DNA of 24,518 nucleotides from a virus. Where the stretch lies: IMG/VR virus record IMGVR_UViG_3300032304_000093, positions 1 to 24,518 of that record, one strand, 5' to 3'. The position numbers were made by a program, and so were the translations under genes. This document shows, in pieces, positions 1 through 15,582 of the stretch (position 1 is the first letter of the stretch; each line of letters starts with the position of its first letter). The notes below the pieces were generated by a model. That model ran no database searches and was not told the origin of the DNA. It worked only from the letters and a program-made list of their open reading frames with translations.

Positions 1-552
1 GCGGCTGGGGTAAGTAAGCTGTTGCAGATCAGTTGTGGCGCGGCTTACACAGACGACAGAGAAGTTGTGGAGTTCGATTCTGCGCCTAGGCTTGCGGTAC
101 TGGAGGAGATACTAGAAGAGACCGACCGCAAGGTCATTATCTTTGCTTTGTTCCGAAGCACCATCGACACGATCAGCACCTACCTCACCAAGAAGGGGGT
201 TGTCAATGAGTGCATCCACGGAGACGTGACGCCAAGCAAGCGTGGTCAAATCATCCACCGCTTTCAGACCGAAGCCGAACCTAGGATATTGGTGATGCAA
301 CCGCAAGCAACAGCGCACGGCATTACCTTGACAGCCGCTGACACAGTGGTGTTCTATGGGCCGTTGATGTCTGTTGAACAATACATTCAATGCTGTGCCC
401 GTGCAGATCGCAAGGGGCAGACTTCCGACAAAGTTACTGTGATTCATATTCAAGGTAGCCCAATCGAGCAACGAATGTTTAAAGCTCTGGAAGGGAAAGT
501 TAGTGATAACTCACTACTAACCCAGATGTTCGACACTGAAATTAAATCTTGA
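1..552 (+). CDS. SNF2-family DNA helicase, C-terminal part (5' end outside window)
   Basis: The frame is open from base 1 to the TGA at 550-552, so about 183 C-terminal residues are present and the start lies upstream. The visible part is the second RecA-like lobe of a superfamily 2 SNF2-type ATPase: a VIIFALFRSTID segment matching motif IV, QPQATAHGITLTAADTVVFY matching motif V, and QCCARADRKGQ (bases 388-420) matching motif VI, which in the family reads Q..GRAHRIGQ. Both arginines of motif VI are kept, while the usual G and H are A and D. The opening residues (AAGVSKLLQISCGAAY) fit the region linking the two lobes. Phages often carry such stand-alone SNF2 proteins beside replication genes; they are thought to remodel DNA-protein complexes or aid recombination. 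The Walker motifs cannot be seen here, so activity is inferred from family membership. Confidence 0.9.
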   Translation, partial: AAGVSKLLQISCGAAYTDDREVVEFDSAPRLAVLEEILEETDRKVIIFALFRSTIDTISTYLTKKGVVNECIHGDVTPSKRGQIIHRFQTEAEPRILVMQPQATAHGITLTAADTVVFYGPLMSVEQYIQCCARADRKGQTSDKVTVIHIQGSPIEQRMFKALEGKVSDNSLLTQMFDTEIKS

Positions 553-623: not shown

Positions 624-1025
624 ATGGAAGAAGAAACGATACCGTTAGATAAGCTGGTAAAAATTTACCGCAAGTTACGCACGAAGATGACCGCACTGAC
701 CCAAGAGTACGACACACAAGCTGAAGTACTCAAGGCGCAACAGGACGAGATCAAGAATGCAATCAAAGAACAGATGAAGGCGATGGGCGTCACATCAGTT
801 CGCACTACCGAGGGCACGGCAGTTATGTCCGTGAAGACTCGCTACTACACACAAGACTGGGATGAGTTTAAGAAGTTCGTACTTCAGCACGAAGCCGTCG
901 AGCTTTTGGAGAAGCGCATTGCGCAATCCAACATGTCACAGTTCTTAGAAGAAAACCCCGGGGTCGTACCGCCCGGCTTGAATTCAACATCTGAGTTCGA
1001 TATCTCTGTACGCAAACCAACTTAA
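624..1025 (+). CDS. Small coiled-coil phage protein in the replication block
   Basis: A 133-residue protein with an AGGAG ribosome-binding site at 614-618, well spaced from the ATG. Residues about 12-57 are a charged helical stretch (Lys/Glu/Gln-rich) likely to form a coiled coil. It is followed by a beta-like segment (TEGTAVMSVKTRYYT), then helices and a Pro-Gly-rich turn (NPGVVPPGLN) before the end. This order, a coiled coil followed by a small alpha/beta tail near a ssDNA-binding candidate, recalls phage Gp157- or Gam-type accessory proteins, but no diagnostic residue proves the link. Its place between a helicase and a putative ssDNA-binding protein suggests a role in DNA replication or recombination. 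The next gene starts 10 bp downstream. The reading frame is convincing; the function is unknown. Confidence 0.85.
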   Translation: MEEETIPLDKLVKIYRKLRTKMTALTQEYDTQAEVLKAQQDEIKNAIKEQMKAMGVTSVRTTEGTAVMSVKTRYYTQDWDEFKKFVLQHEAVELLEKRIAQSNMSQFLEENPGVVPPGLNSTSEFDISVRKPT

Positions 1026-1035
1026 TGGAAATAAA

Positions 1036-2016
1036 ATGAGCAATATTGCAATGTTCAACCCCTCAAACGTCCCTGCATTTGCTAAGAATGCAGTCCTGTC
1101 AGCAACCACGTTAGCCTTGGCTGGCGGTGCAAGTTCCGGTGGAGGCATGAAGCGCGTCTCCATCAAGGGCGGTGTGTTCAGACTGCTGTCTAACGGCAAA
1201 GAGATCGCATCGATTGATGAGCGCCACCTAGATGTGATCGTGGTTAAAGCCGCCCCCAAGGTCAGCCGTATTTTCTACGCTGGTAGCTACGACAAAGACG
1301 CGGCTGCAGCCGCCCCTGACTGCACATCTGCTGATGGCGAGAAGCCTGACGCGAACGTGAAGAACAAGCAGGCATCAAACTGTTCTACATGCCCACAGAA
1401 CATCGCTGGGTCTGGTAATGGTCAAAGCCGTGCATGCCGTTACCAACAGCGCTTGGCTGTTGTGTTGGCTAACAATCCTGAAGGTGACGTGTTGCAAGTT
1501 ACTTTGCCTGCTACATCTATCTTCGGCAAGGAAGACGGCGAGAAGCGCCCACTGCAAGCATACGCTCGCTACATGGCCGCGCAGACACCGCCTGTTAACT
1601 TGGACGCCATCGTCACGCGCATGAAGTTTGATACACAAGCTGAGTCTCCAAAGATTGTGTTTGCCCCTGTGCGTTGGTTGACTGATGCTGAGTACGAGAC
1701 TGCGCAGAACCAAGCCAACTCTAAGGATGCAGAGAAGGCCGTAGCTGTTACCCCTGCCTTTGCTGATGGCGTTGTCTCGCCTGCACCTCTTGCCATACCC
1801 GGAAAGGCACCAAGTTCTGTGACTCTGGGTGCTTTGTTTGACGAAGACGACACAGCAACTCTTGCTGAAGTTAAAGCGACCAAGGCCAAGAAAGCCAAGC
1901 CTGCGGTTGAGGCTGAAGAAGAGCCCGAAGTGCGTAAAGCCCCACCCAAGGTTGAATCCGTTCCAGCTAAGAAGGGCAAGCTGGCCGACATCGTTGCTGA
2001 TTGGGACGATGAGTAA
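1036..2016 (+). CDS. Candidate ssDNA-binding protein with four-cysteine cluster
   Basis: A 326-residue protein starting 10 bp after its upstream neighbour, with a modest GGAA site before the ATG. Residues about 40-215 look like a compact beta-rich core. Inside it are four cysteines, C96, C116, C119 and C134, in an arrangement (NCSTCP ... SRACR) that could bind one zinc. Residues about 215-310 are an Ala/Pro/Lys/Glu-rich linker, and the protein ends in a short acidic tip with an aromatic residue (IVADWDDE). A folded core, a disordered linker and an acidic aromatic tip is the plan of phage T7 gp2.5 and bacterial SSB, whose tips recruit replication partners. T4 gp32 shows that a phage SSB can carry a zinc site. 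With a helicase and a primase nearby, ssDNA binding is the best guess, but sequence alone does not prove it. Confidence 0.8.
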   Translation: MSNIAMFNPSNVPAFAKNAVLSATTLALAGGASSGGGMKRVSIKGGVFRLLSNGKEIASIDERHLDVIVVKAAPKVSRIFYAGSYDKDAAAAAPDCTSADGEKPDANVKNKQASNCSTCPQNIAGSGNGQSRACRYQQRLAVVLANNPEGDVLQVTLPATSIFGKEDGEKRPLQAYARYMAAQTPPVNLDAIVTRMKFDTQAESPKIVFAPVRWLTDAEYETAQNQANSKDAEKAVAVTPAFADGVVSPAPLAIPGKAPSSVTLGALFDEDDTATLAEVKATKAKKAKPAVEAEEEPEVRKAPPKVESVPAKKGKLADIVADWDDE

Positions 2017-2048: not shown

Positions 2049-2342
2049 ATGGCCTATTCACAAAAAATCATTGACGAAGTAGCTAAGACGCCAAAGTCGC
2101 TGGGCAACCAGCTTGGGCGTTGGGCGATCCATCTTGACTTTCCGGTCACGAAGATTGCCTATGCGCTCGGCGTCTCTCGACAGACTGTCTACAACTGGTT
2201 TACAGGCACGGAAGTGTTTGTGGCCTATCGTGACCGCGTCGAATTCTTAACTCACATAATGAAGACCTCGCACTCAGCGGACGAGGCATGGAGAAAAATA
2301 TGTACGGAATACAACCTAGATCCCTCACCACGCAAGAGCTAG
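2049..2342 (+). CDS. Helix-turn-helix DNA-binding protein
   Basis: A 97-residue protein. Residues 32-51 (PVTKIAYALGVSRQTVYNWF) are a textbook helix-turn-helix: a first helix, the turn at GVS, and a recognition helix with SRQTVYNW as in Cro/CI- and transposase-type HTH domains. The rest is helical and carries no other recognisable domain. It may be a phage transcriptional regulator or an origin-binding or priming accessory protein; its place just before the primase gene allows either. No Shine-Dalgarno sequence lies ahead of the ATG, and the UUCG hairpin ends only 8 bp upstream, so translation may be weak or structure-controlled. The 3' end overlaps the next gene. The HTH is secure; the role is not. 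Confidence 0.85.
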   Translation: MAYSQKIIDEVAKTPKSLGNQLGRWAIHLDFPVTKIAYALGVSRQTVYNWFTGTEVFVAYRDRVEFLTHIMKTSHSADEAWRKICTEYNLDPSPRKS

Positions 2343-2482
2343 TTCGGTTTGCAGAAGACTTGGTGCACACCAAAGATGGTCTGCCTAAGAACTGGCAGAT
2401 GGAACTTCTAAGCCGCCTTGCTGGTTACCCAATCATGGAGCGCCCCACGACTAAAGATTCGCGTCAACTCGAACTCTTTTAA
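2300..2482 (+). CDS. Small protein ending in a clamp-binding-like QLELF peptide
   Basis: About 60 residues in a frame shifted from the HTH gene, whose 3' end it overlaps by 43 bp. An upstream ATG at 2288 is possible, but its GAGG lies only 1 nt away. The ATG at 2300 has GGAG (2290-2293) at a proper 6-nt spacing, so it is preferred. The body (LTTQELVRFAEDL ... PKNWQMELLSRLAGY) predicts two amphipathic helices and resembles small proteins often seen in phage replication regions. The last five residues, QLELF (2465-2479), match the bacterial beta-clamp-binding consensus QL(S/D)LF and sit at the very C-terminus, where such peptides are usually exposed. It may tether the replication machinery to the host clamp or interfere with it. 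That role is inferred from the motif alone. Confidence 0.75.
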   Translation: MYGIQPRSLTTQELVRFAEDLVHTKDGLPKNWQMELLSRLAGYPIMERPTTKDSRQLELF

Positions 2483-2497
2483 ACCGCAAGGACTTCA

Positions 2498-5386
2498 ATG
2501 ACTCCGCTTGAGTTTTTAGCGGTCGTTTTGCCGTCGCCAGAATTTGGCCGGTACTGCGTAGCAGAGCTTGTAAGGAAAGAGCACGCCTTTGTGCGGACTC
2601 TGGAAGAAACTACAGCGCCAATCAAACGTTGGCACGACAGTAAGCTGGATGTTTTCTTTGCCTTGGCCACCTTTGGTGACGAGGAAAAGCGCTTGGCTAC
2701 GAACGCTCGCTATATTAAATCCTTGTTTATCGACATGGACGGATACGCATCGAAGAAAGATGCGGCACAAGCTCTCAGCGCGTTTTTAGAGAAGACTGGT
2801 ATGGATGCCCTAGGCAACCCCTATGTCGTTGCGTCTGGTGGCGGTTTGCACTGCTACTGGCCATTGACTGAGGCTGTACCGATTGACTCTTGGAAGCCCG
2901 TGGCTGAGAACTTTAAACGCCTGTGCAAACAGGAAGCTTTGGCTATCGACATGACTGTGACGGCTGACGCCGCCCGCGTCTTGCGTGTGCCCGAGACTAC
3001 AAACTTCAAGAAGAAGTACGCAACGCCGCGCCCTGTGCGCATACTGTCTGAGGGCGATGTGTTCAGCTTTGAGGGGTTGGCTTCCCTTATCAGGGAAAAA
3101 CTAGCAGGCTCAATCTACGAGGCGCAACCCATGCCCAAACTAGATTTGGCCGGCACCCGTCCGTCTGCTGCTCCTTCTGCGACAAGCGTCAAGCTCTTTG
3201 AGAACAGCGTAACCAAGTTCAAACCAATTTGGCTGGCTACGCAGAACGATCGTGGGTGCGTCCAGCTTGCGCACTACGTTGAACACGCAACCGAAGAAGG
3301 CATGGAGCCGATCTGGAGGGGTCTACTGTCATGGGCTAAGGTCTGTGAGGATGGAAACAAAGCCGCGGTGTGGCTGAGCAAGATGCACCCGTATGAGCCT
3401 GAGCGCATGAACCAAAAACTTCAGAGCATCAAAGGCCCATACCCTTGCATCAAGATGGACTCCGAGAACCCCGGCGTGTGCCCCACATGCCCACACTGGG
3501 GCAAGATTACTAACCCACTGATCCTAGGTCGTGAGTTGGCAGTCGAGGTCGAGGAGAAAGAAATCGAGGTGAAGTTGACAAGTGACAGTGCCGTCACTGC
3601 AATGGAAACCATCAAGGTCATGCGCCCAACACCACCACGCGGGTACTCCTATGGAGCCAACGGCGGTACGTTCATGGAGCGCACAGTAGAGGATGACGAG
3701 GGCGTTAAGTCCAAGAAGCAAGTCATGCTACTACCCTACGAACTGTTTGTTGTTGACATCCTCAACAGCAACGGGGATCACACAGTACACCTGATAGCGC
3801 TCAAGCCTGATGGTGCAGTGAACATAACCATGGCGCAGAAAGCTGTGGTCAGTAAAGACGAGACTGTTAAGGCGTTAGCCAATCAGAATGTGGTGGCCGC
3901 TTTTGGCCACAACAACGACAAAAACCTATTTGAATATGTGAGGGCATGTGTGGAAGAAGCTAGTACAAGCAGACCTGCTATAAAGGTTCCTGACAGCTAC
4001 GGCTGGCAGGCAGACAATACTTACGTGTACGCAGGGCGTATCTTCAGTAAGGGTAAACCCCCAGTCAAGGTTCCAATGCCGGGTCTGGAGAACATCACAG
4101 TAAACACCGAACCCAAGGGAACCATTGAGGCTTGGCGCGACTTCATCAACATGTTGATCGCCAAGAAGATGTGGGGGCACATAGCCATAATCCTTGCCGG
4201 TGCTGGCGCACCTTTCATGCGCTTTACAGGCATCTACGGGATGACATACCACTGCGCTAGTACCGAGTCTGGTACAGGCAAGACGCTGTCTCTTGAAGCT
4301 GCTGCTTCAGTATGGGGACACCCAACGCACTATCGTACAGGTAAGAGTACTTCGCCTGTGGCTATGCAACAACGTCTTGGGCTTCTTAACAGCCATCCGC
4401 TTATCACGGATGAAATCACCGCCAAGAACAGAGCCGCCCCTGAGTGGTTGCCTGAGTTCCTGTTGGATATGACCGAAGGCCGTGGCAAGGAGCGTATGGA
4501 GTCTGGCTCCAACAAGGAACGCCTGAACCTCTCGACATGGATGACTGTGTGCTTGATGTCATCTAACACGCACGTTGTGGACTACTTGACCGGTGGGCGT
4601 AACCACTCATCAGAGGGCGAGCTTCGCCGCCTGCTTGAGTTCACGTTTGACGAAGCGCTGACATGGGAGCCGCATGAGATTGAGATCATCAAGTCTTTGC
4701 AGTTTAACTACGGCGTGGCTGGCTACAAGCTAGTTGAGTACATGGTTGAGCATGTCGATGAGTTCCCCACATCTGTGCGTGAAGCGGTTGCCGCTATGTA
4801 CACGGAGTTCAACGCGACTAACGATGAGCGCTTCTGGATGGCAAGTATAGGAACCGCAGTCCATGCGCGTAATGCTTTCAAAGAGGCAGGTATTGTGGAC
4901 ATCCCACTGCGCCCCGTGCTGAACGCGTTTAAGAAGGTTGTGACGGCCATGCGCTCTAGCATGAAGCATAGCTTGCGCACCGCAGAGGATGTACTAAACG
5001 CTTACACTAGGGAGAGCTACGGCAGTTTCGTGGTTATTAAACCTAGCACTGGCGGCTTGATGGCAGAGCTTGGCAGTGGCCAGATGATTGACCAGACGAT
5101 TACACGCAACAAGATTCTTGGGCGTGTAGAGCATGGCGTAACGCCCGGCTATATCGACTATTTCATTGAAGAGACACTGCTGAAGTCCTACTGTGCTTCT
5201 ATGAGTTTTGGTTACGCTTCGTTCAAGCGCCAGCTTGAGGACACGTTTCAGGTTGAGTATCTCAGGAAGAACATGACCTCCAAGACCAAAGGCCCCGCCA
5301 TGCGGGTTCCAGCAATGCGTGTCAGACGTAAGATGGACGAGCTAGATGAAAGTATCATCAATCCGCTTCCCGTGGGAGACGCTTGA
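2498..5386 (+). CDS. Primase-polymerase / DUF927-like helicase fusion
   Basis: A 962-residue replication protein with AAGGA (2488-2492) 5 nt before its ATG. The N-terminal third fits an archaeo-eukaryotic-type primase (PrimPol): FIDMD (D79, D81) as the metal-binding motif, SGGGLH (S113-H118) as the nucleotide-binding motif, and D151 followed by AARVLRVPETTNFK as the third motif. A possible zinc site follows with C317, C328, C331 and H333 (CPTCPHWG). The C-terminal half is a P-loop helicase of the DUF927 type, with Walker A ESGTGKT (K595 at 590-596) and Walker B LITDEI (D638, E639). It should unwind DNA and prime, or even extend, the phage strands. No separate DNA polymerase lies in the window. 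The gene overlaps the next by 41 bp, which suggests translational coupling. Confidence 0.92.
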   Translation: MTPLEFLAVVLPSPEFGRYCVAELVRKEHAFVRTLEETTAPIKRWHDSKLDVFFALATFGDEEKRLATNARYIKSLFIDMDGYASKKDAAQALSAFLEKTGMDALGNPYVVASGGGLHCYWPLTEAVPIDSWKPVAENFKRLCKQEALAIDMTVTADAARVLRVPETTNFKKKYATPRPVRILSEGDVFSFEGLASLIREKLAGSIYEAQPMPKLDLAGTRPSAAPSATSVKLFENSVTKFKPIWLATQNDRGCVQLAHYVEHATEEGMEPIWRGLLSWAKVCEDGNKAAVWLSKMHPYEPERMNQKLQSIKGPYPCIKMDSENPGVCPTCPHWGKITNPLILGRELAVEVEEKEIEVKLTSDSAVTAMETIKVMRPTPPRGYSYGANGGTFMERTVEDDEGVKSKKQVMLLPYELFVVDILNSNGDHTVHLIALKPDGAVNITMAQKAVVSKDETVKALANQNVVAAFGHNNDKNLFEYVRACVEEASTSRPAIKVPDSYGWQADNTYVYAGRIFSKGKPPVKVPMPGLENITVNTEPKGTIEAWRDFINMLIAKKMWGHIAIILAGAGAPFMRFTGIYGMTYHCASTESGTGKTLSLEAAASVWGHPTHYRTGKSTSPVAMQQRLGLLNSHPLITDEITAKNRAAPEWLPEFLLDMTEGRGKERMESGSNKERLNLSTWMTVCLMSSNTHVVDYLTGGRNHSSEGELRRLLEFTFDEALTWEPHEIEIIKSLQFNYGVAGYKLVEYMVEHVDEFPTSVREAVAAMYTEFNATNDERFWMASIGTAVHARNAFKEAGIVDIPLRPVLNAFKKVVTAMRSSMKHSLRTAEDVLNAYTRESYGSFVVIKPSTGGLMAELGSGQMIDQTITRNKILGRVEHGVTPGYIDYFIEETLLKSYCASMSFGYASFKRQLEDTFQVEYLRKNMTSKTKGPAMRVPAMRVRRKMDELDESIINPLPVGDA

Positions 5387-5561
5387 GAAAGGGCAGGGGT
5401 TCTTTATCCCCTGCCTAGATACGGACGAAGTTCGTGAAGTAGGGCTGCGCAAGGCAGTCCTGTGCCGAGTACTGGATGCCCGTGCCATCACGGGCATCCA
5501 CGAGGGCTTTACTGGGGTTCTGTTCTATCGACTGCCGCGCGCACCATCGAAGACAGCTTGA
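5346..5561 (+). CDS. Small conserved-looking phage protein (last gene of rightward block)
   Basis: A 71-residue protein that starts inside the 3' end of the primase gene and ends inside the 3' end of the oppositely directed giant gene (53-bp overlap, 5509-5561). Its opening (FPWETLEKGQGFFIPCLDT) and the later GIHEGFTGVLFYRL resemble a recurring family of small phage proteins of unknown function with a KGQGFF(V/I)PCLDT motif; this is from memory and was not searched. It is predicted to be a small alpha/beta fold. The ribosome-binding site is weak, which fits coupling to the primase. Two perfect hairpins, 5392-5415 and 5473-5500, lie within its codons. Because both neighbours constrain its ends and the motif looks familiar, it is likely real, but nothing here shows its function. 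Confidence 0.72.
   Translation: MKVSSIRFPWETLEKGQGFFIPCLDTDEVREVGLRKAVLCRVLDARAITGIHEGFTGVLFYRLPRAPSKTA
5392..5415 (+). repeat. Perfect 8-bp inverted repeat just after the primase stop
   Basis: GGCAGGGG (5392-5399), an 8-nt loop, then CCCCTGCC (5408-5415). It begins 6 bp after the TGA of the primase gene and lies inside the overlapping small gene. There is no T-run after it on either strand. It could stabilise the primase mRNA's 3' end or slow transcription. Confidence 0.5.
5473..5500. terminator. Perfect 12-bp hairpin at the convergent junction
   Basis: TGGATGCCCGTG (5473-5484), loop CCAT, then CACGGGCATCCA (5489-5500): a perfect 12-bp stem, the strongest inverted repeat noticed here. It lies 8 bp past the stop codon of the leftward giant gene and inside the last rightward gene, so both converging transcripts would fold it. 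Neither strand has a T-run, so it may act as a pausing, mRNA-end-protecting or factor-assisted terminator element, not as a classical intrinsic terminator. Confidence 0.5.
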
Positions 5562-8500
5562 TTTTCATCTGCCGTATCTCGGCCAGTCTCTCACGTTTCT
5601 CTTCGGGCGTAAGGCTCGAGGCACGCACGGCACGCTCATACTGGGTCAACTCACCAATCTGCTTGGTAAAGTCGCCAGAGATTTCGCCTAGCATGTACTC
5701 TCTGCCACGAGTCTCGATAAGCTCAAGCGCCTTGGATTTTTCTCCACGCTCAATGTAATCGTCCACTGTCTGCTTGACCTTGGCAAACTCGTTCATACGA
5801 TTGAATGTGCTATTGATAATCTCGCCAGCATCGTTGGGCTGGAACGCACCACCAATAAGTGCACGCTCAGACAAACGCTTGTATGTCTTCTCAGGCGATC
5901 CTTCGGAAGAGAAGGGGGAGCTAACCACTTGCAAGAACGCCAAGCCCATAGTGCCGGTGTAGCCCTTGATAAACTCCTCAACCTTGACAGGAGAAGCGCC
6001 AACCAAAGAGCCGTAAGCCTTGGCAATCTCGGTGGTGTTCTCACGGAACTGCGCTTCTGGCAACAACTGTTGCTCACCCTTAGACAGAATGTCGCGCCCT
6101 GTGTAGAACGACTTGCCCAGCGAAGTCTCAATGATAGGCTTCATGGCTTGCGGTATGGGCAGTAGCGTAGGAACCTTAAACCCGCCAACATCGATCGTAG
6201 CCATGCTAGTACCGCCGGGAATAGTCTGGATCAAGATTTGGTTAAACGCCTTGACCGCCTCTTCGCTACCATGCTCATTCATCATGGAGTTGTACAGCGC
6301 CTCTGGCAAAGCCTTGAAGATGTAGCCAATCTCAAACGGGATTGGTATACGAAGCGGCTCTTCCACACCGGGGATACGCACAAACCAATTGCCGTACTTC
6401 TGATCTGGCGTAGCGTTCTTGTAGGCTTCGTCGTCCTGCATCGAGGCGGCATACGCCAACGTACCAGCGGCAATCATCAAACCACGAGTCAACAACTTCT
6501 CCTGTATCTTCAAGCGCTCATTGAAAGGCAGGTTGCCTGTCAGGGCTTTGTACAGCACATTCAAACCTTGGATCTGTGCGTTGAAGAACGGGATCAGTGA
6601 GTTAGCCCAGTGGATGCTAGGTGACGCACCGCGCTTGTTAAAGTTCATGGACTCAAGCGCCATGTACGTGGCTTCCATCTCAGACAAGCCCTGCTTGATG
6701 TAGCTGTTGTATTGGGCGCGTCGTGTAAGCGCATCAGCTTCCATAGAGATAGCTTCTGCCCTAGACAATAGTTTGGAGAACACGCCCCTGCCAGCCGTAA
6801 TGTCGCGCAAGATTTTAGTCAAGTCTTCGCTACCGCCCGTAAACACCTGACCGCCTGTGATGCCTCGGCTCTCTAACGTGCCCTTGGTTGCGCTACCAAT
6901 CTCTTTAAGCGCTCCAGTAACAGGGAAGAAATCAGCACCGGTCAATAGCGGGGCAGCTAAAGAATCACGGAACAACTGCCTAGCTGCATACAAAGGCGAT
7001 GCCGTCACAGCCTTACGCAAGAACGTAGCGGGGGCTGCCATAGCACGCAGTGCAAACGGCATCTGGGACGGAATACCTTCCATACCCTTAACCAAAATGT
7101 CCGCAGGCACGCCTGCTTTATCGGTAGCAATCAACGCATAGCGGTCGCCCGTGTCTTTGTCTTTCTCGTTCTTAGGATCAGGCTCAACCTTAAAACGAAC
7201 CACGTTAGCGCCAGCAATAGGCTTACGGGTAATGGTTGCCAGACCCAAGTCCACCAACTCAAAGACTGCGTTGCTGGTAGCCTGATTGCGCAAAGCCATG
7301 TCAGTCAGCAAGTTTGTGTTCTGAACAGCGCTGGTCATGAAGTCAAGGATCGGCTCATCGCCACCCACCAACTCTTGCAAGTATGGCTGTTCTTTAATGC
7401 TACCAATCTTGACTGGGTTTTCTCCGCCAATCAGCAGTTCCACCACGCCGTTACGTTGACGGTAGTACGGGATGTAATCCTTAGACGCAAGTAGCTTTTC
7501 TACAACAGCGCGTGGGAGCGCATGGGTCTGAGCCGCAAACCGTACCAGCCCCTCGTTGTAGGCGTTGTATTCAGCCCGTGCTGTTTCAAACAGATCTTTA
7601 AGGCCGGGCGTGTTATTAATAGCGCGGTTGGCGCTATCCAGTTCAGCCTGTGTAATCTTGCCGTTAAACCCTAAAGTCTCCAGCCCCTTGTTCTGAGCGC
7701 GGATGCCGGCCAGATACAAAGTAAACAAACGGCTGGCGCCATCTGGACTGCCTACCAAAGGTGCTGCACGTTTGAGAATCTCAGCCACGCTACGGATGCT
7801 TGGCCCCTTGACGCTCTCAATGATGTACTCTTTACGGCCATCGGCACGGATTTTTTCTGTACGTTGCAGTGCACCATTTCCCACAGACTGAGCCACAAAG
7901 TTCATGCGTTGGTCGTACATGCGCAAGTAGTACAGCATCTGAGTGCCTTTGAGCTTTTCCATACCCTTAGACAGACGCTCAAACCCAGCAAACCGGTCAA
8001 TCATCTGCGTCTCAAACGCCAAGCCAGAGCCGTTGGCTTTGATCTTGTCGTACAGGTTTTTATCTTTAGCGACGACCTTGTCGACAATAGCGCCAGCCGC
8101 AGCCAACTCAGGCGTTGCGTAATTGGTACGCAAAGAAATCAAACCTGTTGGTGATTCGTACGTGCCCGCAAACTCCTGTTGCATACGCTTAGTGGCTTGG
8201 AACATTGTGTAGTACAAATCGCTTGTACTGACATTAGCAAGTTTAAAGAAGCCAGTATTGCGTAACCACTGGCGCAGAGCGCCAAGCACTACCTTGATAT
8301 AACGGCCAGCCTTCTGGACAAACGTCTCGTTGACTGTGGCCTCTTGCATGTGCGCCAGCATCTCACGCACAGACTGGATCTCTCCCATACGGCGAATCTT
8401 TGCCGCTGTGTCCTTGTCGCCCTTTTGTTCAGCTTCAACAGCGCGTTGCTCCCATGCAGTAGCTGACGCCACCACATCTTCTTCAACGCCCAAGGCTTTG

Positions 8501-11500
8501 GCCATACCGTAAATGCCGCCTTCTGTAGTACGAATGGCTTTGGTCAAGTCCATCATACCTTGGGGGCCAAGCACCACGTCTACGCCATAGTGACCTACGG
8601 CTTCGTGAATCAAAGTCTTCTCTAAGTCCAGCGCGTCAGTGTGCTGATCGCCAATAACAACAATCGTGCCGTCAGGTAGCACACCGCCTTTGACTGATGA
8701 CGTTTCTACATTTACGCCGGCATTAGATAGCGCTTTCAAATATTTAACTGGCGCCTGACTAAGTGTCGGGGCGTAAATAAACTTTACGTCTTTTGGTAGT
8801 TTGCTTGCAAACTTGTCTGCAATAGCTTTAGCCTCTGCTTCAGCTATGGGGTTTATAACCGCCTCCGCTTCCACACGAAACACTGTGCCGTCTGTGTCAT
8901 CAGAACTGTCAATCAAGCGTTTAACGTAACCGCCAGTAACTTCTTTCAAAGCCTTGTTGTACTCAGGTGAACCCTTAGAGTACATGGTTACCAAACGGTC
9001 TTTCTTGGCAAAACCTTCAGCCGCTCTACGCACACGCTGTTCCTCAGACGACGCACTCTTAAGCTTTTGGTTTTGCTTAATCAACGGTTTAATGTCTGAG
9101 TTCTTCTCGTCACGCGCCAGTGTGCGCATGGCGCCCTTCATGTCTTTGACGTTCTCTGCTATAGGGGCACGGGTAGCGCCCTTTGTATCTTCTTCCGGCT
9201 TGCCCAGCAGAATTTCGTCAGCGGTTTTCTTAGCCGCAAAGTAACGCTTAGTCAGGTCAGCAAGGCGCTCTTCGTTCTTAACCTCCATTGGTTTCAAACG
9301 TGTTGACAGTTCCGCCAACCGCGCCTTGGTCTTGTCAAGTTGTTGCGTTAAGTCTTTAACACGGCGGTCGTAAGCCGACTCGCTAAGTGTGCTGATGTCG
9401 TACTCTTGCTTACGCTTAACTTCAGACAACTCGTAAGCAATCTTGTCGTATTGGTTTTGAGCGTTACGCACAGCAGTGCGTTGCTGGCTAATATCTGTCT
9501 GCCCTTTAAGCGTACGTACATGCTCAATTTCTTTGCGTAGCTTCTCTTGCTCAGCACGCGCATCGGTGTACGTCTTGATGTCTTTCTTAGGCAAACGGTT
9601 AATTTCCTGAGAAACCTGCCATTTAGTATCCAGTTCTGTAGACGTAGAACCAACAACTTCTTTTACGGACACGTATCGAGCGCCTGCCAAGTCTTCCATG
9701 AAGAGTTCTTGGGCATCCAGCTTTTCTTTGGCTACGTCAATACGGCGCTGGTCTAGTGTTGTAAGTGCGTTTTTGTACGCTTTGCGGGCTTTCTTAAGCG
9801 AGTCGTACGCTTTCTTAGCCGTAACGTTCTTACGCTTTTTATCTTTATCATCAGCTTCTGGGTCGTCTTTAGGGTTGTAGTTAAAGACTGGGCCGTCTGT
9901 TGTGTATTCCACAGTCCAGCCAGCGTTCATAGTTTGAACTTCACGAGACACGCCAAACCTACCAGAAGCGTAAGCTGCCTTGCGGCCTTCTTCGCTCAAA
10001 GCTTTGACGCGGGTGACCTTGGTGCTGGGTATGCCTGCGCCTGTTTGGATGCGTTCTTGCTGAGCTTTAGCACTTAAACGCGATGCTTCTTTAGCGTTGT
10101 CTACAGCTTGCTGAGACAAAATAAGTGCGCTACGGCGCTTAGCTAAATCAACTGATTTCTTCTCATCTTTGTATGTAAGCGCTTTCTCAGCGGCTTTAAG
10201 TTTAGCCCACGCATCTTGCAACGCACTGTCGGCACGGCGAAACATTTCAACTTCGGCTTCTGTAACCTCAATGACTTTGCTTTCGGCTTCTTTAATGTTC
10301 GCGTCAATAGAAGCCAGTTGCTCACGCAACTCATACAAGTCCATGTTGAAGTCAAGAAACGCTTGCTTGTTTGTAGGGGGCGTAGCCCTAGACATCCGGT
10401 TAATAGCGTCAAACACTTCTCCGCGGCTTTCCCGCAAAGACTCAATCAAGTCTGCTTTTTCTTGCGTTTGTTTTTGTTCCTGCTCTCTTGCGCGTTCTCT
10501 GGCGCGTCCCAAAGCCGTTTTAAATGGCTCTGCTGGATCAACATCGGTGCTGTACTCTTCCATGAAACTTTCACGGAGTTGCACCAAGCGGCCTTCAGCC
10601 GTTCGCATAAACTGCTCAGTCTCTAGCTCGGCTCTGTAAGCTTCCAAACTTTCAATTTCAAACTCAGACTGCGCACGCTGATCTGGCTCTTCGCCCTTCA
10701 TGCGATTGCGTACAGCCGCAAGCTGTTTATTAACCGCGCCCATTTTTGCTTGGAATGCGTCGCCTTTGGGGATGTCCGCCGGCTTTTCTTTCACTACGGG
10801 TTCGGTCAGGCCATTTTTACGGGCTAACTCATCCATGTCAGTCATGGCAGCTTTTAAACGATCAACGTTTTTCTGCGCCATTGACAAACCAATTTCGCGG
10901 CTATCGTTTTCTACATCAAGACCTTGAATTTTGGCTTCAGCAACAATCTGTTGGAGATCTTCCGAGTACTTACTTATTTCTAACAACTTTGCGTTGTTAG
11001 CCATTTTTTCGTATAGATCGGCACGTTCTTGCAAGCGCTTGGATTCTTCTTTGTATAAATTTGCCTTACGCTCTAATACAGAATTTCCTGACGCAGTAGC
11101 TTCCGCTCTAGTCTCGAACGCTTTTTCGCGCATCCTGTCCGCTTGAAACGTGTACTGTCCTGCCAACACGCCGTAGTAATTAAACTGTGTAGCTTCTGGT
11201 CTTTTGCGTAAATCCTGCAATGCGCCAAGCGCAGTCACGTAATCAGTACGTGCTTTCTGCAAATCTTCAAACCGCACAGGCAAGATGCTGGCAAGGCGAT
11301 TTGCTTCTTTACGTAGCTTGGCAATCTTGCCGTATTTAGACGAACCCAAGAACTGTTCTGGCGTATCAAAGATAACGCCTTGTTCGGCGGTGGGAGCGAA
11401 CAGGTCAGGTGTTTCAACCTGCACGGCACGTTTTTCTCCTTCGGGGCCTTCAAATTTAAACTGAGCAGTATCGGCACCCTTTGCGGCAAAGAGTCCAAGG

Positions 11501-14500
11501 TCGTCCAGCGATGCTTGGTTTTGTGCAAGGCTCTTCTGTAGCGCTTCCATGCGCTTGTTAAGTCGTTTGAGTTCCTGTTGCTGCTCTTCAGAAAGACCAC
11601 GGCGAGGGACTTTCGCACCAACTTTAACTTCTTTGCCGGGGGCAATACCCACAAGAGCGTCAAGTTCGCCTTGCGTGTCTCTGATGGCACGCTCCAGCAC
11701 CCGCTGGTTGTACTCAAGATCGGTGCCAAGCTCAGACGCTAAGTCTTCGCCCAAATCCAACTGCTGCATACGGGCAAGCAGTTTGGCTGTCTTATCGTAG
11801 TCTTTGGCGGCAAACGCTTCCTTGATCTGGGTTTCCAGTTCAGCGGCTTCGTCGCGTCGTTCTTTAAAGTTAAACGGTGTCTCAGGCGCTTTCTGGCGCT
11901 CACCAAGTTCTGCTTGCTGTTTGTTGTAGCGGGCGGTCAGTCCTTGGATTTCTTTAGTCAGCCGCGCACGGTTTTCGTTTTCACCTTGCTTGTTTTTCAA
12001 CGCATCAAGCTGATCTTGTTTTTCTTTGATCTGCGCCAACAATCCCTGACGACGCTCAATCTCAGACACTTCCACACGCTTGCGCTCAGGCTTAGCCAAG
12101 AGCTTGGCTTCAGCCGCTTCCAACTGTTCTTTAATTGTCTCAACCGCTTTTTGGCGGTCAGCAAACGGGCGTTGGCTGGCAGGGCGTATGTCTTTTTCTT
12201 TTCTGCCTTTGGTAAGCCTAGGCTCGTCCAGACGCTTCATCAGGTCTGTAATGTCTTGCGTAACCCTAGAATCGTGCGCTGCATAGTCGTCAAACTTCTT
12301 TTTACGCAACAAGTAGCGCTGTTGCATTTGATCGCGGGCAATATACGCTTGGCTACCAACTGGGCCCTCTGGCATGGCCAACCATTTTTGACGGGCAGGT
12401 TCTAAGTCTTCACGACGATAGCGCTCCATCTGATCGCGTAGACGCATTGACTCCTGTTGCTTGGCCTTGATCTTGTTGCGGATTGGTTTTTGCTGGCTCT
12501 CAACTAGCTTGTTAATGTCAGCTATCAGAGCATCACGTTTTGCCGTTAACGCAGGAGATTTTGCGTAATCTTTTTTACTTAACTCAGCCAACTGTTCCTG
12601 CATCTTCTGCAGTTTGTTAACTCTGGTGACAACAGTTTCTTTGACAGGCTTTGCCACATACCGAGTGCTCAACTCTTTAAGCGAGTCGTACATGTCGTTG
12701 GTAGCTTGCAGAATCTGGGCGCTAGACAGGGGTGACTGTCTCTGAGCCGCACGCAAGTGCGCCGCTTCTTTCAATGCCGCTTGTACATACTCGGTACGCA
12801 GCTTAGACAGACGGACTAAGTCATACTTGTGTGGCGCATCTTTGGATGTACGTTGAGTTTCAAGCGCTTCAAGCAAACGATCGTATGCGTTGTCTTTAGC
12901 TTCTTTCTGGCGCTTGGCTTCCAACGTATGGCGCTGTGAACTGATTGCTTCGTTGTCTAAAGTTTTAAGTTCTGCCGCACCACTGACGCCCATAACCTGT
13001 GCCAACTCGTTGGCATCCTTGGCTTCCATCTTTTCAATGGGGGGCAGCGTGGTGTCAATAGTTGCTTTACGTTCTGGTGCGGCAACTACCTTCTCGGCAA
13101 GGCGTTCTTCTCCAGCCGCAGTACGGCGGCCACGTTTGCCTTCCTCAATATGCTTGAGCAAGCGCTCCAGTTCCTGCGCCTGCATGTCACGCCACAGAAT
13201 CTCCTTGGCTTTCTCTGACAGGTTGCCTTCTGTGTCGTACAGATTGTTCTCGGCAAACGGATCAGCCATGTACTGATCGAGTAGCTCTTGCGCTTTCTGT
13301 TTGCTGTCATTGAGCTTGGTACGCAACTTACCTTCGACAAACTCTGCATCTTCAATGACGTTGAGGTCAAGCTTCCTGTTGCTAAGACCTTTGAGACCAA
13401 GAATATCTTTGACTTCTGAATTAATAATGCCTGAGTCAATCGCTTCGTCCACGCCCGTCTTAGCGACCTTTGGCTCTTGCTCTTGCAGTTCCTTGGCTTC
13501 TTTCTCTGTCAAGTCACGGCTGACACCCTTTTCATCAACGATGTAGGGTACGCTTCTGGTAACTTCCTTGGGCGATGTGCTTGGAACGCGGCGGTACAGC
13601 ACCTTTGGTGCAGCTTTGCCTGCTTGTGCTTCAGGGCCAACAAAGTCAGGGTCAATACCGCGGCTCAGTGAGTCTGCATACTCTTCAGGAGTGAGTGCTT
13701 TTTTCTTACCTTCCTCCTTAGTTTTAATAACTTCTTCGTATTCTTGTTCGCTTTCAAACAACGCAGTTTGTTGTTCTGCGGCTTTCTTTTGCGCGGCTGT
13801 TTCAACGCCGGGTTGTGCGCTCACAGAAGCGCCACGGTTCTGCAGTTCTTCAATGTCTTCTTGTTTAAAGCGCTCCTCAAAACCGGGGGCAAACATGTCC
13901 AGTTGTTCGGTGGGCAGTGCCTTGACTTCGCCCGGAAACGAAACGCTAGGTGTTTTACGCTCAAGGCCCGCTTGTGTAGTCTGCAGTTTTTCTAACTGTG
14001 CGGCTAGTGTTTGGGCTTTGGCAAAGTCGCCGTTGTCCAATGCTTTGTCTAACGCTTTGCGTACCGATCCTAGATCCGCTTCAGCAGGGGTTAGTTTGTC
14101 TAATTGTTTGAGCGTACCTTTGAGGCTTTCCTCTGCCGGCACCATCTTCTCAAGTTGTTTAGACAGCGATATAACTCGCTGCATGTCCTGCTTAGCCCTA
14201 GCGTCTTTCAGTTGGTTTAACAAATCTGGCACTACGCGCTTAGCCTGCTCTAAGTCTGTCGTCACACGCTCACGAAGCGTTGACTGCAAGGTGTCAAACG
14301 GCTGGTTTTTTATCTCGTCATCGGTATAGCCCAACTGCTTGGCTATGCTATTAAGCTGTTCAGTACGCGCACGCTCTGCGTCAGGTAATTCAGAGAACTT
14401 ACCAACAACTGTCTCGTCGCCCATCTGCGCCAGCAACTCAGGCGTGCCTAGTTTCCTAGCTTGAGCTAAACGTTTTTCTTCTGCTTTGGCTAAACGTGCT

Positions 14501-15582
14501 TGTTCTTTGGCGGCTTCAGCTTGTTGCTTGGCTGCCTCTTTGTCTATGCGCTCTTGTTCTTTTCGCGTCTCTTCTTCTTGAAGCTGGCGCATCTGTTCTT
14601 CTTGACGCGCTATTTCCTGTTGCTGGGCACGTTCGCCCCGAGCCGCGGCTCTGTCCCCAAAACGACCGGCTGCACCAATAGGAGCAAGTAAACCGACTTG
14701 GTAAGCTGTTTCGCCATACTCTTTAAGGGCGTCCTCGTCTGTTAAAGACAAGCCTGCTTGCGCACGCTGCAACATCTGTTGCGTAATCTCAGTCGGAATC
14801 TCAGCAAGAGCGCCAGTGGCTGTACCTTTTGCAAGGGTGGCCAGTAGTCTTTCATCGGCTAGTTTAGATGCTTGTTCAGCAGTCCTACCAAACAAAGCTT
14901 TCTCTGGGATACCGGTCAGCTTACTGACAAGGCGGCCACCCAAAGGAATAAACGTACCGGCCACATCCAAGGCGGCTTGAGGCGCGGCGGCTAGTGCGGC
15001 TGCACCACGATCAATAGTAAGAGGCTCACCGCGTTGTTGTTGCTCGGCTGCTTGGCGCTCAATGTTGCCACCAAACTGTTGAATAAGAGACGGCAAAAGC
15101 GCACCGCCAATACCACCAACTACTGCACCTGCAGGCCCAGCAAATGAACCAAGCGCAGCACCAGCGCGAGCACCGCCTAGTGTGGTAGCAATATTGGGAA
15201 TTTGTTCGGCAATAGCCGCAGGGATTTGGCTGATAGCTTCACCAGCCGCAGGCAAAATGCCTTTTTTCTCGTAAGCTTCTATGACTTTATCAAGGCTGAC
15301 TTGTTGAGCGTAACGCCTGTCAATGTCTTCACCGCGCTCTAAAGCGGCTTTGGCGGCTTCTTCAGGAGAGCCTGTAAGGGATCCGATTGCCGTCTTGCCA
15401 GACGAGATCAAAGACTCTAGACCCTTACCTACCGCGGCACCGATGCCTTCTTTGGGTTTACGTTCTTTGGTTTTTGCACCGCCCGTCATCTCTCGGGCTA
15501 TCTGGGCCAGTCGCCTTGCCGCCTCCTTATCACCTGCTGCATCTGCGTTGCGGAGGGCTTCAAGGACTTGGCTGATTTCCAT
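5509..15582 (-). CDS. Giant internal virion / polyvalent-type protein with metallopeptidase-like motif
   Basis: A 3357-residue protein, the last gene of the leftward late operon, starting 5 bp after the transglycosylase gene; its AGG site overlaps that gene's stop. Residues 132-170 form a Gly/Ala-rich hydrophobic segment and 315-375 a Glu/Gln/Lys/Ala coiled coil. Residues about 420-2180 are almost all charged helix. HEAVGHYG (H2326-G2333), with a downstream REMLAH (E2407), resembles the zincin-like peptidase motif of phage polyvalent proteins, though spaced HExxxH. The C-terminal region (about 2440-3250, with SPLYAARQLFRDSL near 2865 and WFVRIPGVEEPLRIPIPFEI near 3065-3085) resembles Large Polyvalent Protein Associated Domain 38. 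Next to a transglycosylase virion gene, it most likely is packaged and ejected with the DNA, like T7 gp15/gp16, and may process host or phage proteins. The reading frame is certain; the enzymatic role is inferred. Confidence 0.9.
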   Translation of the reverse strand: MEISQVLEALRNADAAGDKEAARRLAQIAREMTGGAKTKERKPKEGIGAAVGKGLESLISSGKTAIGSLTGSPEEAAKAALERGEDIDRRYAQQVSLDKVIEAYEKKGILPAAGEAISQIPAAIAEQIPNIATTLGGARAGAALGSFAGPAGAVVGGIGGALLPSLIQQFGGNIERQAAEQQQRGEPLTIDRGAAALAAAPQAALDVAGTFIPLGGRLVSKLTGIPEKALFGRTAEQASKLADERLLATLAKGTATGALAEIPTEITQQMLQRAQAGLSLTDEDALKEYGETAYQVGLLAPIGAAGRFGDRAAARGERAQQQEIARQEEQMRQLQEEETRKEQERIDKEAAKQQAEAAKEQARLAKAEEKRLAQARKLGTPELLAQMGDETVVGKFSELPDAERARTEQLNSIAKQLGYTDDEIKNQPFDTLQSTLRERVTTDLEQAKRVVPDLLNQLKDARAKQDMQRVISLSKQLEKMVPAEESLKGTLKQLDKLTPAEADLGSVRKALDKALDNGDFAKAQTLAAQLEKLQTTQAGLERKTPSVSFPGEVKALPTEQLDMFAPGFEERFKQEDIEELQNRGASVSAQPGVETAAQKKAAEQQTALFESEQEYEEVIKTKEEGKKKALTPEEYADSLSRGIDPDFVGPEAQAGKAAPKVLYRRVPSTSPKEVTRSVPYIVDEKGVSRDLTEKEAKELQEQEPKVAKTGVDEAIDSGIINSEVKDILGLKGLSNRKLDLNVIEDAEFVEGKLRTKLNDSKQKAQELLDQYMADPFAENNLYDTEGNLSEKAKEILWRDMQAQELERLLKHIEEGKRGRRTAAGEERLAEKVVAAPERKATIDTTLPPIEKMEAKDANELAQVMGVSGAAELKTLDNEAISSQRHTLEAKRQKEAKDNAYDRLLEALETQRTSKDAPHKYDLVRLSKLRTEYVQAALKEAAHLRAAQRQSPLSSAQILQATNDMYDSLKELSTRYVAKPVKETVVTRVNKLQKMQEQLAELSKKDYAKSPALTAKRDALIADINKLVESQQKPIRNKIKAKQQESMRLRDQMERYRREDLEPARQKWLAMPEGPVGSQAYIARDQMQQRYLLRKKKFDDYAAHDSRVTQDITDLMKRLDEPRLTKGRKEKDIRPASQRPFADRQKAVETIKEQLEAAEAKLLAKPERKRVEVSEIERRQGLLAQIKEKQDQLDALKNKQGENENRARLTKEIQGLTARYNKQQAELGERQKAPETPFNFKERRDEAAELETQIKEAFAAKDYDKTAKLLARMQQLDLGEDLASELGTDLEYNQRVLERAIRDTQGELDALVGIAPGKEVKVGAKVPRRGLSEEQQQELKRLNKRMEALQKSLAQNQASLDDLGLFAAKGADTAQFKFEGPEGEKRAVQVETPDLFAPTAEQGVIFDTPEQFLGSSKYGKIAKLRKEANRLASILPVRFEDLQKARTDYVTALGALQDLRKRPEATQFNYYGVLAGQYTFQADRMREKAFETRAEATASGNSVLERKANLYKEESKRLQERADLYEKMANNAKLLEISKYSEDLQQIVAEAKIQGLDVENDSREIGLSMAQKNVDRLKAAMTDMDELARKNGLTEPVVKEKPADIPKGDAFQAKMGAVNKQLAAVRNRMKGEEPDQRAQSEFEIESLEAYRAELETEQFMRTAEGRLVQLRESFMEEYSTDVDPAEPFKTALGRARERAREQEQKQTQEKADLIESLRESRGEVFDAINRMSRATPPTNKQAFLDFNMDLYELREQLASIDANIKEAESKVIEVTEAEVEMFRRADSALQDAWAKLKAAEKALTYKDEKKSVDLAKRRSALILSQQAVDNAKEASRLSAKAQQERIQTGAGIPSTKVTRVKALSEEGRKAAYASGRFGVSREVQTMNAGWTVEYTTDGPVFNYNPKDDPEADDKDKKRKNVTAKKAYDSLKKARKAYKNALTTLDQRRIDVAKEKLDAQELFMEDLAGARYVSVKEVVGSTSTELDTKWQVSQEINRLPKKDIKTYTDARAEQEKLRKEIEHVRTLKGQTDISQQRTAVRNAQNQYDKIAYELSEVKRKQEYDISTLSESAYDRRVKDLTQQLDKTKARLAELSTRLKPMEVKNEERLADLTKRYFAAKKTADEILLGKPEEDTKGATRAPIAENVKDMKGAMRTLARDEKNSDIKPLIKQNQKLKSASSEEQRVRRAAEGFAKKDRLVTMYSKGSPEYNKALKEVTGGYVKRLIDSSDDTDGTVFRVEAEAVINPIAEAEAKAIADKFASKLPKDVKFIYAPTLSQAPVKYLKALSNAGVNVETSSVKGGVLPDGTIVVIGDQHTDALDLEKTLIHEAVGHYGVDVVLGPQGMMDLTKAIRTTEGGIYGMAKALGVEEDVVASATAWEQRAVEAEQKGDKDTAAKIRRMGEIQSVREMLAHMQEATVNETFVQKAGRYIKVVLGALRQWLRNTGFFKLANVSTSDLYYTMFQATKRMQQEFAGTYESPTGLISLRTNYATPELAAAGAIVDKVVAKDKNLYDKIKANGSGLAFETQMIDRFAGFERLSKGMEKLKGTQMLYYLRMYDQRMNFVAQSVGNGALQRTEKIRADGRKEYIIESVKGPSIRSVAEILKRAAPLVGSPDGASRLFTLYLAGIRAQNKGLETLGFNGKITQAELDSANRAINNTPGLKDLFETARAEYNAYNEGLVRFAAQTHALPRAVVEKLLASKDYIPYYRQRNGVVELLIGGENPVKIGSIKEQPYLQELVGGDEPILDFMTSAVQNTNLLTDMALRNQATSNAVFELVDLGLATITRKPIAGANVVRFKVEPDPKNEKDKDTGDRYALIATDKAGVPADILVKGMEGIPSQMPFALRAMAAPATFLRKAVTASPLYAARQLFRDSLAAPLLTGADFFPVTGALKEIGSATKGTLESRGITGGQVFTGGSEDLTKILRDITAGRGVFSKLLSRAEAISMEADALTRRAQYNSYIKQGLSEMEATYMALESMNFNKRGASPSIHWANSLIPFFNAQIQGLNVLYKALTGNLPFNERLKIQEKLLTRGLMIAAGTLAYAASMQDDEAYKNATPDQKYGNWFVRIPGVEEPLRIPIPFEIGYIFKALPEALYNSMMNEHGSEEAVKAFNQILIQTIPGGTSMATIDVGGFKVPTLLPIPQAMKPIIETSLGKSFYTGRDILSKGEQQLLPEAQFRENTTEIAKAYGSLVGASPVKVEEFIKGYTGTMGLAFLQVVSSPFSSEGSPEKTYKRLSERALIGGAFQPNDAGEIINSTFNRMNEFAKVKQTVDDYIERGEKSKALELIETRGREYMLGEISGDFTKQIGELTQYERAVRASSLTPEEKRERLAEIRQMKIKLSSMVRAAVDRTEPQ

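Follow-up and report, generated by a model that had tools for sequence, protein, structure and literature searches.

A 60-residue phage protein encoded before a primase-helicase gene ends in a candidate binding motif for the host beta sliding clamp

Why should a phage encode, directly before its primase-helicase, a very small protein whose last residues resemble the peptides that bind the bacterial beta sliding clamp? We sought to answer this question for a stretch of viral DNA of 24,518 nucleotides (IMG/VR record IMGVR_UViG_3300032304_000093, positions 1 to 24,518; hereafter the window). The microprotein ORF lies on the + strand and, as the original prediction stated for a protein of 60 residues, ends exactly in QLELF, followed at once by TAA; both the ORF and its stop are read directly from the window. 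The features of the locus are as follows.

22..552, + strand: SNF2-type helicase, C-terminal part, cut by the left end of the window (519 aa at full length in a relative)
624..1025, + strand: replication-module protein, 133 aa (PHROG 13900; weak Mu Gam-like and Sipho_Gp157 matches)
1036..2016, + strand: replication-module protein of unknown function, 326 aa (PHROG 27714)
2049..2342, + strand: upstream HTH protein, 97 aa, overlapping the microprotein start (weak HTH matches; gene order constant in the loci inspected)
2290..2293, + strand: Shine-Dalgarno GGAG of the microprotein, 6 nt before ATG 2300, present in nearly all family genes
2300..2482, + strand: microprotein, 60 aa (MYGIQPRSL...RQLELF), stop TAA; GGAG before ATG 2300, ATG kept in family genes
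2330..2422, + strand: predicted helical hairpin, residues about 11-41 of 60 (AlphaFold2 mean pLDDT about 90 over residues 11-40)
2423..2464, + strand: variable low-confidence linker, probably disordered (high column entropy, pLDDT about 60)
2465..2479, + strand: C-terminal pentapeptide QLELF, candidate beta-clamp-binding motif (kept in 91/110 homologues, with synonymous codon variation)
2498..5386, + strand: primase-helicase (DUF927; PHROG 25314 / 8841), the anchor for finding syntenic homologues

Two starts are available to the microprotein: the ATG at 2288 chosen by the ORF caller, which gives 64 aa, and the ATG at 2300, which gives 60 aa. The second is most likely the one used, since its GGAG is well spaced and the ATG matching 2300 is constant among homologues, while the upstream "start" is ATG, TTG, GTG or CTG (CTG in four genes). 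Its first 43 nt lie within the HTH gene, and 15 nt separate its stop from the primase-helicase. The microprotein of the window had no Pfam or PHROG family match above threshold, and a search of 63 homologues gave only scattered weak matches in one or two members.

Conservation of the motif was assessed at two depths. Direct search of viral contigs returned 100 relatives, and in all 80 that were fetched the motif (QLELF, QLDLF, QAELF or QPELF) stood at the C-terminus or one residue from it. Loci anchored on the primase, whose identity among syntenic homologues goes down to about 56%, reached far deeper. Practically all the loci inspected had a homologue immediately ahead of the primase, including four that the extraction rule missed but for which an earlier listing shows it. 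The resulting set comprised 110 distinct syntenic homologues, a count that depends on pattern-seeded searches and primase similarity and on metagenomic records that may be fragments: 91 had Q-x-x-L-F with 0-4 trailing residues, three had a hexapeptide form (QLELDL or QLELDF), and 16 had no motif. The original prediction had named homologues lacking the motif as evidence against it; such homologues do occur, as a minority of 16 of 110, and the rest of the family bears the motif. The invariance of Q, L4 and F among the 91 carriers follows from the definition of the class and is partly circular, so the non-circular measures are the share of motif bearers (94/110) and positions 2 and 3. Position 2 was L in 74 of the 91 carriers, R in 8, K in 3, Q in 2 and another residue in 4; position 3 was D in 50 and E in 27, the two acidic residues together accounting for 77/91.

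Synonymous codons are used for the motif residues: CAA or CAG, any of six Leu codons for L4, and TTT or TTC. Among 52 distinct close genes Q, L4 and F are constant despite this variation. Since the codons vary in this way and the Shine-Dalgarno sequence of the primase lies after the stop, selection acts on the peptide. A nucleotide-level cause, with the ribosome-binding site of the primase placed within the motif codons, was rejected on the same grounds. The linker before the motif is hypervariable, its column entropies being among the highest in the alignment. The comparison of homologues that had been proposed as a check of the motif thus shows QLxLF retained at the C-terminus, or no more than five residues from it, behind a variable linker.

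If the resemblance were accidental, five residues would have matched by chance, as the original prediction conceded they could. The motif is short, which gives this explanation its footing, but it recurs in 94 of 110 distinct homologues over deep divergence and with codons changed synonymously. For comparison, 20 genome pieces and the window supplied 3,536 other ORFs, each 40 aa or longer, of which only four showed Q-x-x-[L/M]-F among their nine C-terminal residues. Three of these four belonged to the microprotein family, which leaves a frequency of about 1 in 3,500 for the C-terminal motif in ORFs of these phages outside the family. Homologue conservation and the ORF background together rule against an accident, which we rate as vanishingly improbable.

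What is known of clamp-binding peptides fits the tail well. Their consensus is QL(S/D)LF, in which Q and the last aromatic residue are critical, position 2 is tolerant, and position 3 is variable, Asp being slightly favoured; five- and six-residue versions are equivalent, and the most frequent peptide in phage display on the clamp was LQLELDF (PMC11139829). QLELF and 94 of the 110 homologues match QL(S/D)LF or Qxx(L/M)x(L/F), and homologue L242 ends in QLELDF-S, whose first six residues form the core of the peptide selected by phage display. The substitutions among homologues, including the interchange of pentamer and hexamer, follow these published rules, which supports the description of QLELF as a clamp-binding-like peptide in the original prediction. 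Pol II, Pol IV and Pol III alpha have their clamp motif in a C-terminal tail, and an Hda peptide with QLSLPL binds the clamp with a KD of 0.38 uM. The microprotein resembles these proteins and UmuC in its pentamer and hexamer forms, its flexible C-terminal tail and its pattern of tolerance, and differs from them in that the carrier is a 60-aa phage protein without an enzymatic domain, whose binding is predicted from sequence. Its motif shows peptide-level selection (synonymous codons, variable linker) and lies in an accessible, disordered segment (residues 46-64, of low confidence and without secondary structure in the model). In our judgement the tail quite probably binds the host beta clamp.

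A tail of this kind might instead bind another partner, such as a phage protein, as the tails of SSB or T7 gp2.5 do on polymerases, or a protease, and its likeness to the clamp motif would then be convergent. All motif carriers have an aromatic residue at the end of the chain or close to it, which would suit such a partner. However, several features match the clamp motif rather than an acidic tail of the SSB type or a terminal degron: Q is retained, the residue preceding it is mostly basic, the trailing residues are L, K, Q or DTK, and five- and six-residue forms exchange. The same two forms also occur in a second, unrelated family. A different partner is thus improbable.

The second family is a small protein of 73-82 aa with a clamp-like C-terminus, present in phage G007 and its relatives (L288:13527-13748; L296-L322; L295:8258-8497; L325). 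Its pentamer endings are QLPLFS, QLPLFP and QQDLFS, and its hexamer endings are QLNLPF, QLSLPF and QLTLPF, followed by GE and a short tail. Remote members have QLKLPFGE or QLDLPFGE plus a short tail (G012, G013), QGDLF (G008) or QLPLW (G003), and the motif is missing from the weak matches found in G006 and G019. Because the alternation of pentamer and hexamer recurs in this second family of the same phages, a target shared by both small proteins appears more likely.

The body of the microprotein was modelled with AlphaFold2 from 63 homologues. The model has helices at residues 15-25 and 34-45 in the 64-aa numbering, a weak N-terminus and an unstructured tail, and positions E17, L18, P33, E39 and R43 of the hairpin are invariant or nearly so in the 63 members. 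A fold search with the hairpin model returned no confident match. A profile match to PDB 9hnh (E 2.5e-6) was not accepted as homology, the matching chain being a helical repeat that matched four times.

The replication module around the gene was then examined for the enzymes that a clamp would serve. In mapped relatives the typical order is family A DNA polymerase (PolA, about 660 aa), a 101-aa protein, a PD-(D/E)XK nuclease, the SNF2 helicase, the 133-aa and 326-aa proteins, the HTH protein, the microprotein and the primase-helicase. The polymerase lies upstream in 24 of the 24 longer relatives searched, and is missing from the window because the window starts inside the SNF2 helicase gene. 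The remark in the original prediction that no polymerase is seen is true of the window but misleading for the phage group: the idea that the phage has no polymerase fails on these 24 relatives. A recognisable clamp was absent from the 20 examined. Beta clamp, clamp loader and Pol III alpha (PF02767, PF02768, PF07733, PF13177) were found in 0 of these 20 long relatives, seven of which had been chosen for absence of the motif. The T4-type clamp (PF09116) was likewise found in 0 of the 20, a weaker negative, since the control set contained no T4 genome by which to show sensitivity.

A clamp motif joined by a linker to a small helical protein is also the layout of T4 gp33 (PMC7892883). By analogy, the hairpin could sit on RNA polymerase and the tail on the host clamp, coupling late transcription to replication. 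T4 gp33 and gp55 are indeed phage proteins that hold a sliding clamp by a short motif on a linker, but the ring they hold is gp45, which T4 itself encodes, and their task is late transcription; the search of 20 long relatives, with no T4 control, showed no gp45-type clamp. Moreover, gp33 has five helices against two in the microprotein, no similarity to gp33 was seen, and the microprotein gene stands next to the primase. We consider a link to transcription very unlikely.

If the phage replicates with its own PolA and without a recognisable clamp, then the microprotein might serve to block the host ring: by occupying the pocket it would displace Pol III and stop host DNA synthesis, while the PolA worked independently of the clamp. 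A small free-standing protein with a consensus C-terminal motif would suit this task, and DnaN is a target with precedents in Twort Gp168, G1 gp240 and the Caulobacter toxin SocB, which reaches DnaN through a clamp-binding motif (PMC9690074). However, a single motif peptide usually binds the clamp in the micromolar range (PMC11139829), which is weak for blocking, and the gene is located within the replication module. The precedents themselves are imperfect. Gp168 of Staphylococcus phage Twort and G1 gp240 are, like the microprotein, small phage proteins acting, or proposed to act, on the host clamp, but no sequence similarity between them and the microprotein was found. Gp168 blocks the DNA channel of the clamp and not its peptide pocket, and the canonical pocket motif of the microprotein argues for a different binding mode. 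SocB is a component of a bacterial toxin-antitoxin system that stops replication, whereas the microprotein belongs to a phage replication module.

The homologues without the motif (L156-L158, L160, L209, L212, L215, L221, L226, L232, L240, L243, L248, L250-L252) bear on the same choice. They retain the hairpin, and their chains end earlier or in a charged helix. This retention of gene and hairpin after loss of the motif is unexpected if blocking is the whole job, and is expected if the hairpin has a phage partner of its own; an adapter is thus favoured over a pure blocker, and the fixed place of the gene before the primase favours the adapter too. Overall, we hold the blocking role to be unlikely.

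The history of the motif was traced on a primase tree of 109 rows, a quick tree that alone cannot separate gain from loss. The motif needs five state changes on it, at least four of them forced by well-supported branches, against 14.3 with shuffled labels. If the root lies among motif carriers, the motif would have been lost several times. One carrier, L210 (QLNLF), is nested in a motif-less group, which suggests regain, retention or gene exchange. Since the motif is missing from 16 homologues and phages without it also encode PolA, clamp tethering would be dispensable in some lineages. PolA and the neighbouring module proteins had no clamp-like motif except QTSLF inside one PolA, so a search of the module in motif-less phages for a motif that might compensate yielded nothing else. 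Outside the module, two motif-less phages encode a 458-aa acidic, Cys-rich protein (L283:13398-14774; L281:18128-19456; L330-L334). Near its end it has QADLF or QAELF in three near relatives and QQELPL in one; two homologues are free of the motif, and a compensating role for this protein was not established.

We infer that the hairpin has a phage partner and that the microprotein acts as an adapter rather than a blocker. The process would comprise two attachments. The QLELF tail would enter the peptide pocket of DnaN, the beta sliding clamp of the host, and the hairpin would most likely hold a partner in the phage replisome, either the primase-helicase or the family A polymerase. In this way a ring supplied by the host, with no recognisable counterpart in the phage, would lend the phage fork processivity or positioning. 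To the whole of this reading, replisome docking by the hairpin together with the tether to the clamp, we assign a probability of about 0.5. A wider proposal is more tentative, and we lean slightly against it: that these phages place clamp access on detachable small adapters (the primase-linked hairpin and, in some members, the second small protein), so that a PolA replisome runs on the host clamp without a clamp or loader of its own.

T7 gp5, a family A polymerase, borrows host thioredoxin as its processivity factor via an insertion in the polymerase. The arrangement proposed here is alike in that a phage family A polymerase would borrow a host processivity factor, and differs in that the insertion of gp5 is part of the polymerase itself, whereas here the link to the clamp would be a separate adapter. 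Outside T7, little is known of how phages that have a family A polymerase but lack a recognisable clamp achieve processivity. If the proposal is true, these phages would provide a host-clamp counterpart of the use of thioredoxin by T7, the handle having been lost repeatedly in side branches. The matter can be tested directly, since the conserved 60-aa protein encoded beside the primase carries a canonical handle for the host clamp, and the family is a natural panel of clamp-binding peptides for the motif rules, position 2 being L, R, K, Q, H, A, G or P.

The carriers of the microprotein form a widespread group of uncultured freshwater phages. A tblastn search of the microprotein against 50,697 phage records gave only chance-level matches, none of them in Staphylococcus phages. 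The cultured Pseudomonas phage Rollin (L169 / L335) and Rhizobium phage RHph_TM3_14A (L170 / L337) have a remotely similar primase-helicase and PolA and no recognisable microprotein homologue, and the stretches examined of Rollin, KPP25 and RHph_TM3_14A held no ORF with a convincing C-terminal motif. No copies were found in bacterial genome contigs scanned with two short peptide patterns. Literature searches, in which subscription papers were thinly covered, returned no phage protein of such a layout acting on the host clamp.

Two further observations concern other proteins. A giant protein on the opposite strand of the window (5509-15582, -) has an internal QLDMF at residue 560, and giant proteins of relatives have QLPLF (L293), QLELF (L277) or QLGLF and QMDLF (L284); five such internal motifs were seen against 1.4 expected on shuffling, a weak excess given a shuffle maximum of 5. 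Finally, several different small early proteins share the ending EAKLKEKNT (L270 2254-4241; also L259, L267 and L269). The DNA of this ending (AAGGAGAAGAACACATGA) contains a Shine-Dalgarno sequence and the overlapping start of the next gene, and the shared ending looks like a translation-coupling cassette.
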